Shown piece by piece: positions 24,137 to 45,404 of a DNA stretch of 64,000 bases (the first letter of the stretch is position 1; every line of letters starts with the position of its first letter). Location: the NCBI RefSeq assembly GCF_001375495.1, contig NZ_LN831058.1, positions 1,198,768 to 1,262,767 of the forward strand, in the 5' to 3' direction. This DNA is from Flaviflexus massiliensis (GTDB lineage: Bacteria; Actinomycetota; Actinomycetes; Actinomycetales; Actinomycetaceae). A program made the position numbers and the translations under genes. The notes beneath the pieces are model-generated. The model did no database searches. It was given only the letters and a program-made list of their open reading frames with translations, and was not told the DNA's origin.

Positions 24137-24877
24137 ATGAAGGTAGCAATCATTGGAGCTAAGGGCCGCATGGGACATGCTATGGCGGCAGGGGTCTCAG
24201 AAACTGACGGACTCGAACTCGTCGCACAGCTCGATGCTGGTGACCCGATCACGACCAAGACTCTGGGCGGGGCAGAAGTCGCAATCGAGTTCACGAGGCC
24301 CGATGCGACTCTCGACAACGTCCTTGCCCTGATTGAGGCCGGCGTACACCCTGTTGTCGGAACGACGGGATGGACCGACGAGGCGCTAGCCAAGGTTGAA
24401 GAGAAGCTGGCCACCAAGCCCGGCCTCGGAGCGGTCATTTCCCCGAACTACGCACTATCAGCAGTCCTCTCCATGGCATTTGCTGCGAAGGCTGCTCGCT
24501 ACTTCGAATCAGCCGAAGTCATTGAGCTTCATCACCCGAACAAGGTCGATGCGCCCTCCGGCACCGCCATCACCACCGCCAAGCACATCGCCGAAGCGAG
24601 GCGCGAAGCGGGCTTGGGGCAGATGCCGGACGCGACCGAAACGGATCCGGATGGTGCTCGCGGTGCCAACATTGATGGAGTGCGCGTTCACGCCGTACGG
24701 CTGCGCGGACTGACCGCACACGAGGAAATTGTATTCGGTAACCCCGGTGAGCAGCTCACCATCCGCACCGACTCTTTCGATCGTGGCTCGTTCTGGCCCG
24801 GCGTGCTCCTCGCCATCCGCGAGGTGACCAAGCGTCCCGGACTCACGTTCGGACTCGACAAGCTCATGGACATCTAA
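24137..24877 (+). CDS. dapB: 4-hydroxy-tetrahydrodipicolinate reductase
   Basis: 246-residue NAD(P)H-dependent reductase, second step of the lysine/diaminopimelate branch. GAKGRMG is the nucleotide-binding glycine loop, ELHHPNKVDAPSGTA the catalytic and substrate-binding segment, SPNYALSAVL the conserved core. Complete, with normal length. Product flows to tetrahydrodipicolinate; see the DapF-fold protein at 42417 for a problem further down the pathway. Confidence 0.96.
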   Translation: MKVAIIGAKGRMGHAMAAGVSETDGLELVAQLDAGDPITTKTLGGAEVAIEFTRPDATLDNVLALIEAGVHPVVGTTGWTDEALAKVEEKLATKPGLGAVISPNYALSAVLSMAFAAKAARYFESAEVIELHHPNKVDAPSGTAITTAKHIAEARREAGLGQMPDATETDPDGARGANIDGVRVHAVRLRGLTAHEEIVFGNPGEQLTIRTDSFDRGSFWPGVLLAIREVTKRPGLTFGLDKLMDI

Positions 24878-25796: not shown

Positions 25797-26696
25797 ATGG
25801 GTAGTACACCGTCTCGAACTTTTGGCTCTGTCGGAGTGGCAATGGCAACGCCATTTTCCCCCGACGGTTCACTCGATATTGAGTCCGCACGCCAGCTCGC
25901 ATCGCACCTTGTCGATCAGGGTGCCGATTGCATCCTCCTGTCCGGCACGACCGGAGAATCACCGACCACGCACCAGCCTGAGAAGGACCTGCTTGTCAGC
26001 GAGGTCGTGGCCGAGGTGAATGGCCGGGCCTTGGTGATTGCAGGTGCGGGTTCCAATGACACCGCGCACGGTGTGCGCATCGCCGTCGGTGCAGAGAAGT
26101 CGGGTGCCCAGGGGCTCCTTGTTGTCTCTCCGTACTATTCCCGCCCCTCCCAGGAGGGCATCTTCCAGCACATCAGCGCGATTGCTGATGCGACGGGTTT
26201 ACCCGTCATGGTCTACGACATCCCCGGACGCACCGGAGTGAAGATCGCCGACGAGACGTTCGATCGCCTTGCCGAGAACCCGAAGATCAAGGCGGTGAAG
26301 GACGCTGCCGGCGATCTTCCCACCGGCATTGCCGTTTCCCGCCGTACGGGACTCGAATACTACTCGGGCGATGATGCTCTCAACCTGCCATGGTTGACCA
26401 TTGGAGCCTCCGGCATTGTCTCCGTCGTGGGACACGTGGCGGCAGCTCGCTACCGGGCGATGATCGACGCGGTGGACGCTGGGAACTATGAGGAAGCACG
26501 CACGATCGATGGCGGCCTGCACTCCCTCGTTGACGTCATCATGGGTGGCGGACAGGGAGCTGTCATGGCCAAGGAAGCCCTCGCCATGATTGGTACGATC
26601 CCGAACGCGACTGTTCGCCTGCCGCTCGTTGGTGCGGGTCAGGGAGAACTCGACGAACTGCGGAAGGTTCTGCGGGTCCAGGGCTACCTGTCCTAA
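25797..26696 (+). CDS. dapA: 4-hydroxy-tetrahydrodipicolinate synthase
   Basis: 299-residue Schiff-base aldolase condensing pyruvate with aspartate semialdehyde, the first lysine/DAP-specific step. LLSGTTGESPTT, the proton-relay Tyr in MVYDIPGRTG and the Schiff-base Lys in IKAVKDAAGD are all present. Normal length. Single gene with its own terminator, upstream of rnj as in most actinobacteria. Confidence 0.96.
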   Translation: MGSTPSRTFGSVGVAMATPFSPDGSLDIESARQLASHLVDQGADCILLSGTTGESPTTHQPEKDLLVSEVVAEVNGRALVIAGAGSNDTAHGVRIAVGAEKSGAQGLLVVSPYYSRPSQEGIFQHISAIADATGLPVMVYDIPGRTGVKIADETFDRLAENPKIKAVKDAAGDLPTGIAVSRRTGLEYYSGDDALNLPWLTIGASGIVSVVGHVAAARYRAMIDAVDAGNYEEARTIDGGLHSLVDVIMGGGQGAVMAKEALAMIGTIPNATVRLPLVGAGQGELDELRKVLRVQGYLS

Positions 26697-39930: not shown

Positions 39931-41493
39931 ATGACTGAGACAACTTTGCCCCGCACCTACGCCATCCGCACCCTCGGGTGCCAGATGAACGTCCACGACT
40001 CCGAACGGCTTGCCGGCTTACTCGAGACGGCAGGCTATCAGCACGTTGACAACGTGCCCGAGGCGGCCACGCGCGCCACGGATGCTGGTGATGCAGGGGC
40101 AGACATTATTGTCCTCAACACGTGTTCGGTCCGTGAAAATGCGGCCAATAAGCTCTTCGGTAACCTCGGTCAGCTCGCCGCGGTCAAGCGTGAGCGTCCG
40201 GGCATGCAGATTGCCGTCGGCGGCTGTCTGGCCCAGCAGATGGGTGATGGGATCGTTGAGAAGGCCCCGTGGGTCGATGTCGTCCTCGGCACCCACAATC
40301 TCGATGTGCTCCCAACTCTTCTTGAGCGTGCTCGCCACAATAGTGAGGCCGCGGTCGAGATCGAAGAATCCCTCAAGGTCTTCCCCTCCACTCTGCCCAC
40401 CAGGCGCGAGTCAGCATATGCCGCCTGGGTGTCGATCTCGGTCGGTTGCAACAACACCTGTACTTTCTGCATTGTCCCTCAGCTCCGCGGCAAAGAACGC
40501 GACCGCAGGCCCGGCGAGATCCTGCAAGAAATTGAAGCCGTGGTTGCCGAGGGTGCCATCGAAGTCACCCTGTTGGGGCAGAACGTGAACTCCTACGGTG
40601 TTGGCTTTGGTCAGCGCGGTGCCTTCGCTGATTTACTGCGTGCCTGCGGCAATATTGAAGGTCTTGAGCGCGTTCGCTTTACATCGCCTCACCCTGCCGC
40701 GTTCACGCAGGATGTGATTGATGCGATGGCGGAGACCCCGAACGTCATGCCCTCGTTGCACATGCCGCTCCAGTCCGGATCGGACAGAATCCTGCGTGCC
40801 ATGCGACGCTCCTACCGGTCGAAGAAGTTCCTTGGCATCCTCGACTCCGTGCGGGAAAAGATTCCGAACGCCGCGATCACGACCGACATTATCGTTGGCT
40901 TCCCCGGTGAGACGGAAGAAGACTTCCAGGCGACTCTCGACGTGGTCGAGCAGTCCCGCTTCTCCTCTGCCTTCACCTTCCTGTATTCACCCCGCCCGGG
41001 AACGCCTGCGGCTGATATGGAGGACCAGGTTCCGGCCGAGGTTGCGAGCGAACGCTACAACCGGCTCATTGCCCTCCAGAAGCGCATCTCCACCGAAGAA
41101 AACGAAGCCCAGGTGGGTCGCACGGTCGACATTCTGATCGCCGCGGGCGAGGGACGCAAGGATGCAGACACCGAACGCCTGACCGGACGGGCCGAGGACA
41201 ACAGGCTCGTCCACGTTGCCCTTCCCGACCACCTGCGATCACTGGCCGGCACCTTCTCCGGCCCGAATCACGATGCCGAACTGCCCCGACCTGGTGACAT
41301 GGTGCGGGCCACGGTCACCCACGGTGCACCTCACCACCTGCTCGCGGACTCCGCGCTGAACGGTGGCACGTTCGAAATCATTCGGACTCGTGCCGGTGAG
41401 GCGTGGGCGAAGGGAAAGGCACGCGTGGCAGAGCTTGAGGCTGAGGCCCGCGGACCGGTTTCGCTCGGACTGCCCACGATTCGCACGCGATGA
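39931..41493 (+). CDS. miaB: tRNA-2-methylthio-N6-dimethylallyladenosine synthase
   Basis: 520-residue radical-SAM methylthiotransferase modifying A37 of tRNAs. N-terminal cluster cysteines in [21 protein letters not shown] and VGGCLAQQ; radical-SAM C-x3-C-x2-C in [20 protein letters not shown]-terminal TRAM domain. ATG 39931 is chosen because TAGAAT precedes it; ATG 39910 would place the -10 inside the gene. miaA overlaps the stop (ATGA). Confidence 0.96.
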
Positions 41494-42407
41494 TAATCGC
41501 CATCGTTGGCCCAACCGCCGTCGGCAAGTCAGCCGCGGCGATTGAGTTGGCGGAGCGACTCGGCGGCCCAGAAGCGGTCGAGATCATTGGTGCCGATTCC
41601 ATGCAACTGTATCGGGGCATGGATATTGGTACCGCGAAGGTGACGGAAGTCGAGCAGCGCGGGATCGCCCACCACCAGATCGATGTTCTCGATATCTCGC
41701 AGGAAGCCTCAGTTTCCGCATACCAAAAGCATGCGCGCCGTGACATCGATGGAATTGTTGACCTAGGCAAGGTCCCGATCCTCGTTGGTGGTTCGGGACT
41801 CTACGTGGCCGCGGCGCTCGACAAGATTGACTTCCCCGGAACGATTCCCGAGGTGAGGGAACGCTACGAGAAGCGGCTTACCGAGATTGGGGACATTGCC
41901 CTCCACGCTGAGCTTTCCGCCATCGACCCCGAGTCCGCCAGGGTCATTGACCCGCGCAACACCAGGCGCGTGGTCCGTGCCCTTGAGGTGAACGAGGTGA
42001 CGGGCAGATCCTTCCAGCCAGTCTTCCCGCGCCACACGTCGCAGTACGTCGACACGATTGTCGTGGGGTTGGAGATGGAGATGGGGGAGTTGGAGGAACG
42101 GATCCGGCTCCGCACGGACCTCATGTTTGATCAGGGACTCCTTCTCGAGACGGCAGCCTTGCGGGAGCAGGGCCTGGATCAGGCCCCCACGGCACGCACC
42201 GCTACCGGATATCGCGAGGCTCTCGCGGTTCTCGATGGGGAACTGACCGAAGAGGAAGCTCGCGAGCTGGTGTCGGCCGCAACCCGGAAGCTGGTGAAGA
42301 AGCAGTTGACGTGGTTCCGGCGGGACCCGCGGGTCAGATGGCTTTCTGCTCGCGATGTCTCGGAACTTCCCACGATCGTCCGGGAAGCCACCCACAATCG
42401 TCGATAG
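41490..42407 (+). CDS. miaA: tRNA dimethylallyltransferase
   Basis: 305-residue enzyme adding the dimethylallyl group to A37, the substrate of MiaB. P-loop [29 protein letters not shown], and [13 protein letters not shown] near the C-terminus. Coupled to miaB. Confidence 0.95.
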
Positions 42408-42410
42408 AAT
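42405..42410 (+). promoter_or_regulatory. Candidate -10 (TAGAAT) for the DapF-fold gene
   Basis: TAGAAT overlaps the miaA stop codon and is followed by six bases and ATG 42417. Confidence 0.4.
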
Positions 42411-42416
42411 AGTTGC

Positions 42417-43313
42417 ATGATTATTCCCGTCCTCGAAGGACTCACCCTCAGTAAGGGCCACGCGGGAGGGCGCGACGCCATTATCTTCCCCGATCTCACA
42501 GCCTCGCGGGAGGTGACGGCAAAGGACGCGACAACGATCCTGGATCGCACAACGGGCATTGGTGGCGAGGTACTCATGCGAGTCGTCCGCGCCAACCCCG
42601 ACGGTACTCTCTGGCGAGTCGATACGTGGTCGGTGGATGAGTTGCGAGATATTGGACCGTTCCTCAGGCTGGCAGCCCACTACCTGCGCGTTTCTGGGCT
42701 TGTCGACCTGGGTGACGGTGAAGCGCTAGCCTTTGAAACTCCCGATGGGCCGGTCTACGTGACCCGGACCGGAAACAGGTACCTCACCCAGATTTCGCCA
42801 TCAACACCCGTCAGCAAGGAAGCCGTGGAGCGAGGCTACGATGTTGCTGTCACGCTCGATGGGGTGACCGGTGCACGGGGTGGCATGAGGGGCGGCCTCA
42901 CGGTGATGTCGAATGACCCCAGCATTGTCGTCGCCCTCGAACACTCCGAAGAACTCAACGCCGCGACAGGCAGCGGGAAGGTTGATCCTGAAAAGCCGGG
43001 TGCCGGCCTCGTCCTGGTCGTGCCGCTCGGGGATGCCCCGATCCTCGACTTCGACGGTATTGAGCGGGCCGCTACGCGTTTCCAGGCGCGTGGCTTCCAG
43101 GATGGTCGTGAGCAACTAACGGAGTTGGGAATCCGAGATGCTGCCATCGCACTACATGCGTGGGCGGGGGAGGCCGCGACCGGGATCTACCTCGCCCACG
43201 CTGGCGGCCACGAGATTGAAATTAGGTTCTCTGGCGGATCCATTGAAGTCACCGGCCCCGCCGAGATCGTTGCCGAGTTTAATCTTGCTGGGATCGTGGG
43301 CGAGGGTTCCTGA
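42417..43313 (+). CDS. dapF: DapF-fold protein lacking both catalytic cysteines (candidate pseudoenzyme)
   Basis: 298 residues at the usual dapF locus (after miaA, before hflX). The DapF framework is clear: LSKGHAGGRDAIIFPDL (canonical FxKGHGTxNDF), TTGIGGEVLMRVVRA (canonical RRxGIGADGVL), GPFLRLAAHYL (canonical CGNGxRxFARYL) and a closing IEIRFSGGSIEVTGPAEIV. The protein contains no cysteine. The first catalytic Cys aligns with Ile79 and its Asn with Pro81; the second (CGTG) aligns with Leu237. The NPH loop reads NDPS and the YRNADGS loop reads DTWSVDE. It cannot racemise diaminopimelate by the known two-thiol mechanism. The frame is intact, so it is probably used. The 3' end overlaps the convergent methyltransferase by 35 nt. 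Confidence 0.75.
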   Translation: MIIPVLEGLTLSKGHAGGRDAIIFPDLTASREVTAKDATTILDRTTGIGGEVLMRVVRANPDGTLWRVDTWSVDELRDIGPFLRLAAHYLRVSGLVDLGDGEALAFETPDGPVYVTRTGNRYLTQISPSTPVSKEAVERGYDVAVTLDGVTGARGGMRGGLTVMSNDPSIVVALEHSEELNAATGSGKVDPEKPGAGLVLVVPLGDAPILDFDGIERAATRFQARGFQDGREQLTELGIRDAAIALHAWAGEAATGIYLAHAGGHEIEIRFSGGSIEVTGPAEIVAEFNLAGIVGEGS

Positions 43314-43899
43314 CATCCATGACCCGGAAGCCACCGGTCGACCCTAATCTTTCCACCTCGTAGCCCTCACCTTGAAGCCAGGTGCCGAGCGAGTCCGCAC
43401 CGAGGTTCTTCGAAACGACGATGCTGGCCGTGCCTTGCAGGTGCTGGAACCAGTCGAGCAGTAGCGCGTGGAGAGGCCCCTTGCCGACCCGGACCGGGGG
43501 ATTCGACCAGATTGCCTCAATGCCGCGATTGCGGGCGATCTCCAGCCCTTCCTCGGGCGTCACGACCTGAATATTCGTGAGGCCGGCGCGTTCCGCATTC
43601 TCCTGCGTAAGAGCGCGGGCCCGCTCGTTAACGTCCACGGCAAGCACGTGAGCATTCGGTGAGGCCGAGGCAAGAGCGAGGGAAATCGGCCCCCAGCCGC
43701 ATCCCACATCAACCAACAAACCTTCGTGTGGTGGGTCCACAACGTACTTGAGAAGCGCCTGGGTTCCCTTGTCGAGGCGATCGTGTGAAAAGACGCCGCT
43801 CGAGGAGGTGATATCGAAGCGGGTACCGCGGATCGTGAAGCTGTAGTCAGCTCGCTTATCGGCAGAGCCAGGGTCGGTGGAGAAGTAGTGTTCAGGCAC
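43279..43899 (-). CDS. Class I SAM methyltransferase, RsmC/RlmG-like
   Basis: 206-residue MTS-domain methyltransferase: LLVDVGCGWGPISLALA is the SAM loop, AVDVNERA the acidic end of strand 2, and WSNPPVRVGK the NPP motif used by enzymes acting on exocyclic amines of rRNA bases. Equivalent to the C-terminal half of E. coli RsmC, so probably 16S rRNA (G1207) or a related target. GTG 43899 is preceded by TAGTTT at 6 nt. Confidence 0.85.
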   Translation of the reverse strand: MPEHYFSTDPGSADKRADYSFTIRGTRFDITSSSGVFSHDRLDKGTQALLKYVVDPPHEGLLVDVGCGWGPISLALASASPNAHVLAVDVNERARALTQENAERAGLTNIQVVTPEEGLEIARNRGIEAIWSNPPVRVGKGPLHALLLDWFQHLQGTASIVVSKNLGADSLGTWLQGEGYEVERLGSTGGFRVMDVRNPRPRSQQD

Positions 43900-43961: not shown

Positions 43962-45404
43962 ATTACCGAACGAGACATTTTTTCCCGTCAGGGTACGGCC
44001 CTGCAAGCAGATGCAGACTACCGACCCGAGTTTGCTGGTGACGATCTAGAACGAGAACAGCGGTCCGCACTTCGACGTGTTCCGGGCCTGTCGACAGAGC
44101 TCCAAGACATCACCGAAGTCGAGTACCGCCAGCTTCGCCTCGAGAACGTGATCCTGGTGGGGATATGGACCTCCGGTACCGCCGCCGAAGCCGAAGTGTC
44201 CCTGCGTGAACTCGCAGCACTGGCCGAGACAGCCGGGTCTGCCGTTCTCGACGGGGTCCTGCAGCGCCGTGACAAGCCCGATAACGCAACCTATCTCGGT
44301 TCCGGCAAGGCTCGCGAGGTCGCTGATCTCGTAGCCGAGACCGGGGCGGACACGATTATTGTTGACACGGAGCTGTCTCCCAATCAGCGACGTAACCTCG
44401 AGGACGTTGCCAAGGTCAAGGTCATCGACCGCACCACCCTCATTCTCGACATCTTTGCTCAGCACGCGAAGTCAAGAGAGGGCAAGGCCCGGGTTGAGCT
44501 CGCTCAACTCGAATACCTCCTCCCGAGACTCCGTGGCTGGGGTGAATCCATGTCCCGTCAGGCCGGTGGCCGTGTCGGTGCCGGTGATGGTATCGGATCG
44601 CGCGGTCCCGGTGAGACCCAGATCGAACTCGATCGCCGCCGCATTCGTCAGCGCATGGCAAAGCTGAAGAAAGATATTGCGAACATGGAGCCAGCGCGGC
44701 GCACGCAGCGCTCCAATAGGCGACGCAACCACCTCCCGTCGGTCGTGGTCGTGGGCTACACCAACGCCGGTAAATCCTCCCTCATGAACCGCCTCACGGA
44801 CGCGGGAGTGCTCGTTGAGAACGCACTCTTCGCAACACTTGACCCGACCGTGCGACGGAGTGAAACGACGGATGGTCGTGCCTACACGATCTCTGACACG
44901 GTTGGATTTGTTCGCTCCCTCCCCACCCAGCTCGTGGAAGCGTTCCGCTCCACCCTGGAAGAGGTGGCCGAAGGTGATCTCATGCTCCACGTGGTCGACA
45001 GCTCGCACCCGAACCCGGTCGGCCAAGTTGAGGCCGTCCACGCGGTGTTGCGGGACGTCGAGGGTGCGGAAGACGTCCCAGAAGTCATCGTCCTGTCGAA
45101 GGCCGATCTTGCCGATCCGGTCGACCTCGCTGCACTCCGTTCCCGGTTCCCGGGATCTGTCGTTGTCTCCGCCAAGACCGGTGAGGGCATCGAACAGTTG
45201 GAAGAATTGATTGCCCAGCGTCTGCCGCGGCCCGCCGTCTCGGTCGATGTCGTTGTGCCGTTCGATCGGGGCGACCTGATCTCCCGTGTCCACACCGAGG
45301 GTGAAATCCTGTCTGAACGCTACAGCGAGAACGGGACGGTTCTGAACGCGCTGGTCGACGAGGATCTAGCTTCCGAGCTCCTGGAGTGCAGTGTCGGTCA
45401 CTGA
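43962..45404 (+). CDS. hflX: GTPase HflX, apparent ATT start
   Basis: 480-residue ribosome-associated GTPase that splits stalled 70S ribosomes. Domain order: actinobacterial N-terminal extension (about 1-62, ending LQDITEVEYRQLRLENV), HflX nucleotide-binding domain, the GDGIGSRGPGETQ linker and coiled coil, then the G domain with GYTNAGKSSLMN, DTVGFVRSLP and SKADL. The frame is open back to a stop at 43935, and the only ATG/GTG/TTG before the core is GTG 44148, which would delete the conserved extension. AAGGAG (43950-43955) is ideally placed 6 nt before ATT 43962. CTG 44001 is the other option. A GATAAT -10-like element lies at 43933. Confidence 0.85.
   Translation: MTERDIFSRQGTALQADADYRPEFAGDDLEREQRSALRRVPGLSTELQDITEVEYRQLRLENVILVGIWTSGTAAEAEVSLRELAALAETAGSAVLDGVLQRRDKPDNATYLGSGKAREVADLVAETGADTIIVDTELSPNQRRNLEDVAKVKVIDRTTLILDIFAQHAKSREGKARVELAQLEYLLPRLRGWGESMSRQAGGRVGAGDGIGSRGPGETQIELDRRRIRQRMAKLKKDIANMEPARRTQRSNRRRNHLPSVVVVGYTNAGKSSLMNRLTDAGVLVENALFATLDPTVRRSETTDGRAYTISDTVGFVRSLPTQLVEAFRSTLEEVAEGDLMLHVVDSSHPNPVGQVEAVHAVLRDVEGAEDVPEVIVLSKADLADPVDLAALRSRFPGSVVVSAKTGEGIEQLEELIAQRLPRPAVSVDVVVPFDRGDLISRVHTEGEILSERYSENGTVLNALVDEDLASELLECSVGH

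Follow-up and report, generated by a model that had tools for sequence, protein, structure and literature searches.

Why does Flaviflexus massiliensis keep a gene in the place of dapF when the encoded protein has no cysteine with which to catalyse the reaction? Diaminopimelate (DAP) epimerase, DapF, is familiar from textbooks and counts as a candidate drug target. The window analysed here is a stretch of 64,000 nucleotides of F. massiliensis DNA, and the gene in question, at 42417-43313 on the forward strand, is a complete open reading frame of 298 codons whose start lies 9 nt past the miaA stop codon. A first-pass annotation, made from the letters alone, had described its product as a DapF-fold protein without any cysteine, and the translated frame does contain none.

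By sequence comparison, the protein is a DapF homologue beyond chance. A phmmer search gave E 4.3e-9 against the DapF of Corynebacterium glutamicum (5h2g) and 4.8e-5 against that of Mycobacterium tuberculosis, the matches lying chiefly in residues 10-98, and a profile built from six Flaviflexus orthologues matched DapF at E 1.5e-20. An AlphaFold model made from three input sequences is of medium quality (pLDDT 69.7, pTM 0.52). Its best 26 Foldseek rows are all DapF or the DapF-like O-ureidoserine racemase, with E values from 1e-11 to 2e-8, and the E. coli DapF-RppH-related structures 6d13 and 6vck are among the matches. TM scores against DapF are low, at about 0.33-0.41 (0.33-0.38 by query length in the best 26 rows), and VIA-align against one DapF gave Z 13.7 with an rmsd of 12.8 over 223 residues. 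Single lobes of the model fit superfamily members at 2.6-3.4 A, and the low TM apparently arises because the two lobes are mis-oriented in the model. On the model, then, the DapF fold is present. In sequence and fold the protein thus resembles actinobacterial DapF (C. glutamicum 5h2g/5h2y/5m47; M. tuberculosis 3fve). It found no match in scans of Pfam (DAP_epimerase, PF01678) or NCBIfam, staying below the curated cut-off, so that annotation by those libraries would miss the gene.

The surroundings point the same way. Upstream is miaA, encoding tRNA dimethylallyltransferase (41490..42407, forward strand; PF01715, 4.5e-76). Downstream, a convergent gene for a methyltransferase with an MTS domain (43279..43899, reverse strand; PF05175, 3e-27) shares 35 nt with the 3' end of the dapF-like gene, and is followed by the gene of a GTPase that we take, by eye, to be hflX-like (44148..45404, forward strand). 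The order miaB-miaA-dapF-(methyltransferase, opposite strand)-hflX recurs in all five other Flaviflexus genomes and in relatives with an active DapF, G075, G092, G066 and G007 among them; 31 loci were compared, some of which are short or rearranged and miss a part. By position, therefore, the gene is the native dapF, at the locus where the first-pass annotation had placed it.

The active site is a different matter. In the alignment, Ile79 stands at the first catalytic cysteine and Pro81 at the asparagine of the CGNG motif, and the NPH and YRNADG loops are gone, all as first described. The second cysteine had been assigned to Leu237; here it aligns with Thr235, in a CGTG loop too diverged to fix the residue. 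Across the six Flaviflexus orthologues the first position reads I/A/P/P/P/E and the second T/V/H/R/G/gap, so both vary freely and neither holds an acid or base conserved among the six. On this sequence evidence, catalysis by a cysteine pair is excluded for the window protein. The loss was then set against 39 of the 47 active DapF sequences, using 14 catalytic and ligand positions, of which N11, N64, N157, N190, E208 and R209 (H. influenzae numbering) bind substrate. In Flaviflexus one of the 14 active-site columns is majority-retained, compared with 39 among the 74 conserved columns elsewhere (p 0.002); in the inactivated DapFs of a second genus, g4, the figures are 9/14 and 68/74 (p 0.013). 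The active site therefore erodes first and the scaffold remains. The Asn and Arg/Glu substrate contacts are lost in Flaviflexus, and it is in lacking both cysteines and nearly all of these contacts that the window protein differs from actinobacterial DapF.

Could other residues have taken over, making the protein an active isomerase or dehydratase? The superfamily that also holds PhzF, PrpF, LigU and hydroxyproline epimerase has the same two-lobe fold in the Foldseek and VIA rows, and some of its members, PhzF and LigU among them, carry out chemistry that needs no cysteine pair. Several charged residues (including D20, R44, D213, R217, R225 and E268) are moreover invariant in the six orthologues. 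Against this, both cysteine-bearing loops are gone and variable, and no conserved replacement base was found in the six. The column matching DapF Gln44, which is that of the PhzF catalytic Glu, reads V, C, A, A, A, G, with no PhzF-type Glu. A new catalytic activity is thus unlikely.

All six Flaviflexus genomes have an orthologue, and in all six both catalytic cysteines are replaced. The other five proteins are 38-61% identical to the window protein, and among the six, at identities of 38-76%, every frame is open. Because the five other genomes share the loss, errors of sequencing or assembly were rejected as its cause. As to how DAP is made, the window holds dapB, for 4-hydroxy-tetrahydrodipicolinate reductase (24137..24877, forward strand; TIGR00036, 184.1 bits), and dapA, for 4-hydroxy-tetrahydrodipicolinate synthase (25797..26696, forward strand; TIGR00674, 248.9 bits), both of them intact as first reported, and the genome also carries ddh and lysA. 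DAP dehydrogenase, the product of ddh, converts tetrahydrodipicolinate directly to meso-DAP. It scores well over cut-off in all six genomes (TIGR01921, 458.7 bits in F. massiliensis), and dapE reaches cut-off in none of the six. Lysine is therefore expected to be made via dapA-dapB-ddh-lysA, with no L,L-DAP. A PF01678 profile search found no second epimerase in the F. massiliensis genome, and its best match to the dapL model has 239 bits, compared with 560-581 in nine relatives described below. Judged by these searches no L,L-DAP-producing route is found in this genome, a further difference from actinobacterial DapF. The first-pass annotation had offered DAP dehydrogenase, a second epimerase or import; the dehydrogenase is the one found here, the second epimerase occurring in two of the six Flaviflexus species.

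The survey was extended to 151 genomes of the family. A DapF-like gene was found in 70 of them and none in 81. Seven of the 70 have only a cassette type (see below) and one (G049) is frame-broken, which leaves 62 genes: 47 with both cysteines and 15 lacking at least one. The latter comprise six from Flaviflexus, seven from genus g4, and those of G023 and G063. Over its cut-off, dapE is present with 45 of the 47 intact genes and with one of the 15 inactivated ones, that of G063 (Fisher 6e-11, kinship ignored and with G049 and the cassette-type genes left out of the table). With kinship controlled, three independent pairs on supported branches are available, of which two agree and one shows no difference, which is not significant. 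The two intact exceptions, G045 and G072, have neither dapE nor ddh over cut-off, perhaps through assembly gaps. As for ddh, it passes its cut-off in all 15 inactivated genomes and also in many intact ones, so that ddh alone does not predict loss.

Inactivation is recurrent in the family, with at least four changes by parsimony on a tree of 65 of the 72 sequences. In g4, G130 has lost C73 and kept C217, and G101 and G137 show the reverse, so at least two inactivations were counted there; the AU test is compatible with a single loss in g4 (p 0.37). The genus offers a graded series in which every frame is open (loci L076, L077, L078, L082, L083, L084 and L100): C217 alone is lost in G101 and G137, C73 alone in G130, and both in G008, G065, G112 and G148.

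Outright loss of the gene looks different. No remnant of dapF was found after miaA in 20 sampled genomes of the 81 without DapF (tblastn, six DapFs, E 0.01), which suggests that lost genes were removed by deletion, although the sampled genomes are kin and their deletions are not independent events. The methyltransferase gene lies within about 205 nt of miaA in 14 of the 20; the gap is longer, 333 nt to 2 kb, in G006, G009, G010 and G033, and in G011 and G016 the gene lies outside the fetched stretch. One weak tblastn match, in G010, falls inside hflX.

The first-pass annotation had also noted a -10-like TAGAAT in front of the gene. It is present at 42405..42410 on the forward strand, 6 nt before the ATG, and its first three bases double as the miaA stop codon. 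In M. tuberculosis, 73% of primary start sites are reported to have TANNNT as their -10 motif (PMC3898074). Transcription is predicted to begin with the A of the ATG, giving a leaderless mRNA, and because the next gene on the same strand lies beyond the opposite-strand methyltransferase gene, dapF seems to be the only gene that this promoter serves. A TANNNT separated from the start by 6 or 7 nt was found at all 15 inactivated native dapF genes, where shuffled upstream DNA would give it in about 1% per gene. Intact dapF genes have it in 30 of 47 cases at the chosen start and in 38 of 47 if other in-frame starts are allowed, and cassette-type genes in none of nine. The place after miaA and the leaderless-type box are features that the window gene shares with active DapF genes of the family. 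The 17 of 47 active genes that lack it at the chosen start (9/47 with alternative starts) count against the promoter argument, and six of the genes without it have ordinary starts (G038, G047, G053, G064, G093 and G138). Outside the family the box was found at 18 of 19 DapF loci, any in-frame start being allowed, and both cysteines at 19 of 19; these are the best 19 by score, 305 of the 396 genomes of the order having matched. We also considered whether the miaA stop codon alone could account for the box. This was rejected, since the stop is elsewhere in several genomes: downstream, overlapping the dapF start codon, in G001, G002, G005 and G063, and 29-106 nt upstream in G130, G148 and G023. 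The leaderless-type box is common to families of the order, and lies inside miaA where miaA overlaps dapF.

Selection was measured as omega with the IQ-TREE codon model GY+F3X4. Over the whole Flaviflexus tree omega is 0.055 for DapF, 0.044 for miaA, 0.057 for the methyltransferase and 0.008 for hflX; active DapF gives 0.058, 0.040 and 0.026 in groups g22, g10 and g4, and inactivated g4 DapF 0.104. Because most Flaviflexus pairs have reached saturation in dS, so that their estimates, as low as 0.002-0.009, are unusable, we rely on the whole-tree value and on the closest pair, G003-G004 (dS about 3). For this pair omega is 0.047 for trimmed DapF, compared with 0.041 for miaA, and 0.033 for DapF at full length; 2dlnL versus omega=1 is 195 for the trimmed and 238 for the full-length gene. 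Constraint is seen in both halves of the gene, also when the last 20 codons are omitted. The usable values of 0.03-0.06 indicate that the Flaviflexus protein is under strong purifying selection. In g4, three pairs among the inactivated G101, G112 and G137, which have the second-cysteine loss in common, give omega 0.09-0.13 at dS 0.44-0.47 (2dlnL 78-90). For comparison, omega is 0.135 in G055-G078, two active DapFs that are close (dS 0.10). The median ratio of DapF to miaA distances is 1.72 in Flaviflexus, 0.58-1.27 in the active groups and 1.11 in inactivated g4. Together with the long Flaviflexus stem branch (1.01), this ratio implies that constraint is weaker than it was before. A long stem would also fit specialisation after the loss.

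These values bear directly on whether the gene is redundant, on its way out, and open only by chance. The gene would be redundant once ddh is present, it evolves faster relative to miaA, and there are cases in other lineages: the related inactivated G023 is cut to 175 aa and looks like true decay, which speaks against the selection reading as well, the branch of G063 is very long (1.76) and G049 is frame-broken. Yet omega lies as low as that of miaA and far from neutral, all six Flaviflexus frames are open, compared with 0.2% of such frames in a simulation of neutral drift by 1 substitution per site, the box is kept in 15 of 15, and the 20 sampled relatives hold no remnants. Frame-broken orthologues with neutral rates, which would have told for decay, were not seen in the genus. 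Slow decay is accordingly quite improbable and already disfavoured, as the first-pass annotation had judged of simple decay. More improbable still is that a DAP- or lysine-binding cleft has been kept without its chemistry, to report amino-acid supply. The fold is kept, and g4 retains 51 of 98 active-site cells, but Flaviflexus has 13 of 84 and has lost the contacts named above. That the DNA itself is conserved, for the overlapping methyltransferase, an antisense frame or a regulatory element, is hardly credible: the 35-nt convergent overlap would allow it, but both halves show codon-type constraint, which persists without the last 20 codons.

We therefore turn to the reading that we consider likely, namely that the native Flaviflexus dapF has lost catalysis and is kept as a pseudoenzyme for a non-catalytic binding role. 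Purifying selection and the kept promoter box together indicate that some role exists. The catalytic residues are lost while the fold and, by the sequence measures, purifying selection are kept, as is usual for the term pseudoenzyme; the non-catalytic nature of the role is inferred. In this scheme ddh would have taken over meso-DAP synthesis, and with dapE below cut-off no L,L-DAP is expected. The epimerase active site has been dismantled: both cysteines are gone, and of the 14 catalytic and ligand columns 13 have ceased to be majority-retained. Fold homology, locus and leaderless-type box are maintained in all six species. The retained task would most likely be protein-protein binding, scaffolding or allosteric. 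It was probably older, present already in the active ancestor, and would have become the sole job once ddh handled the chemistry. The first-pass annotation had proposed a DapF pseudoenzyme with a new role. A DapF without its active site under selection agrees with this, but newness is another matter: an inactivated DapF is under selection in g4 too, which makes it no less likely that the non-catalytic role is old.

Second functions of DapF are not without parallel. The DapF of Chlamydia trachomatis is reportedly a bifunctional glutamate racemase and DAP epimerase, similar in having a second function and different in that this function is catalytic. HisR of Fusobacterium nucleatum is described as a DapF homologue that is an active histidine racemase (PMC11602996); its host likewise keeps a DapF homologue without the DAP pathway, but HisR has two catalytic cysteines and the window protein none. 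The model for our proposal is E. coli, where the doubly substituted DapF(C73&217A) is an inactive epimerase but is reported to retain both tight binding to RppH and its stimulation, the effects being seen in cells too (PMC4227774). The likeness is non-catalytic binding by a cysteine-less DapF, which for the window protein is proposed only; RppH is cited as a precedent and not as the partner. The difference is that the E. coli wild type is also an active epimerase whose cysteines were removed by engineering (PMC4227774), whereas the Flaviflexus loss is natural and fixed.

A broader and more tentative reading, possible but which we would not yet favour, is that DapF of the Actinomycetales has an ancient catalysis-free second function that becomes visible where ddh made the epimerase redundant, Flaviflexus being the end state. 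If so, the active site erodes repeatedly in ddh lineages, with selection still acting on the protein and on its leaderless promoter, and the Flaviflexus protein is a dedicated DapF-derived binding protein. Against the role being important, the 81 of 151 relatives in which no DapF-like gene was found imply that many of them can do without whatever non-catalytic role there is. DapF, pseudoenzymes and moonlighting DapF are already known; in the open-licence PMC literature we found no report of a natural, fixed, cysteine-less DapF under selection. The natural series from active, through one cysteine lost, to dismantled, with selection in two genera, parts the chemistry from a possible second role, which becomes testable without losing DAP. 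It would also outline a recurrent path of pathway replacement, in which ddh comes in, L,L-DAP goes out and the epimerase turns into a pseudoenzyme.

Several further observations were made in the genomes surveyed. Near ddh in the F. massiliensis genome, a 390-codon frame (L065:44-1213, reverse strand) resembles a zinc-ribbon transposase by eye, with no Pfam match at 1e-5. In the dapE-positive genomes G009 and G040 (79% complete) no DapF was found. G009 (L120) and G063 (L081), the latter with an inactivated DapF, have both dapE and ddh, and are perhaps intermediates in which the epimerase went before dapE. The dapF of G049 (L080), which is dapE-positive, is split into two overlapping frames by a frameshift that is either real or due to sequencing. 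Longer DAP-dehydrogenase-like frames of 437-511 aa, which differ from standard ddh and whose best pieces score 166-191 bits, occur in G054, G077 and G094, in G077 alongside a standard ddh.

Finally, two of the six Flaviflexus genomes, G002 and G004, hold an additional full DapF (TIGR00652, 255 and 260 bits), adjoining a gene for LL-DAP aminotransferase (NF006756, 580 and 578 bits). These pairs lie at L074:5080-7174 and L075:4723-7114, beside genes that look guaB-like by eye. The dapL model TIGR03540 gives 560-581 bits in nine of the 151 family genomes, the same nine that have the cassette-type DapF; none passes that model's own cut-off of 593 bits, and the name dapL rests on NF006756, run for two of the nine. 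The cassette-type DapFs form a single clade with support 100/100. In the seven further genomes the same DapF type and dapL occur together, about 5 kb apart in G025, which suggests that dapF-dapL is a mobile pathway cassette restoring an L,L-DAP route.
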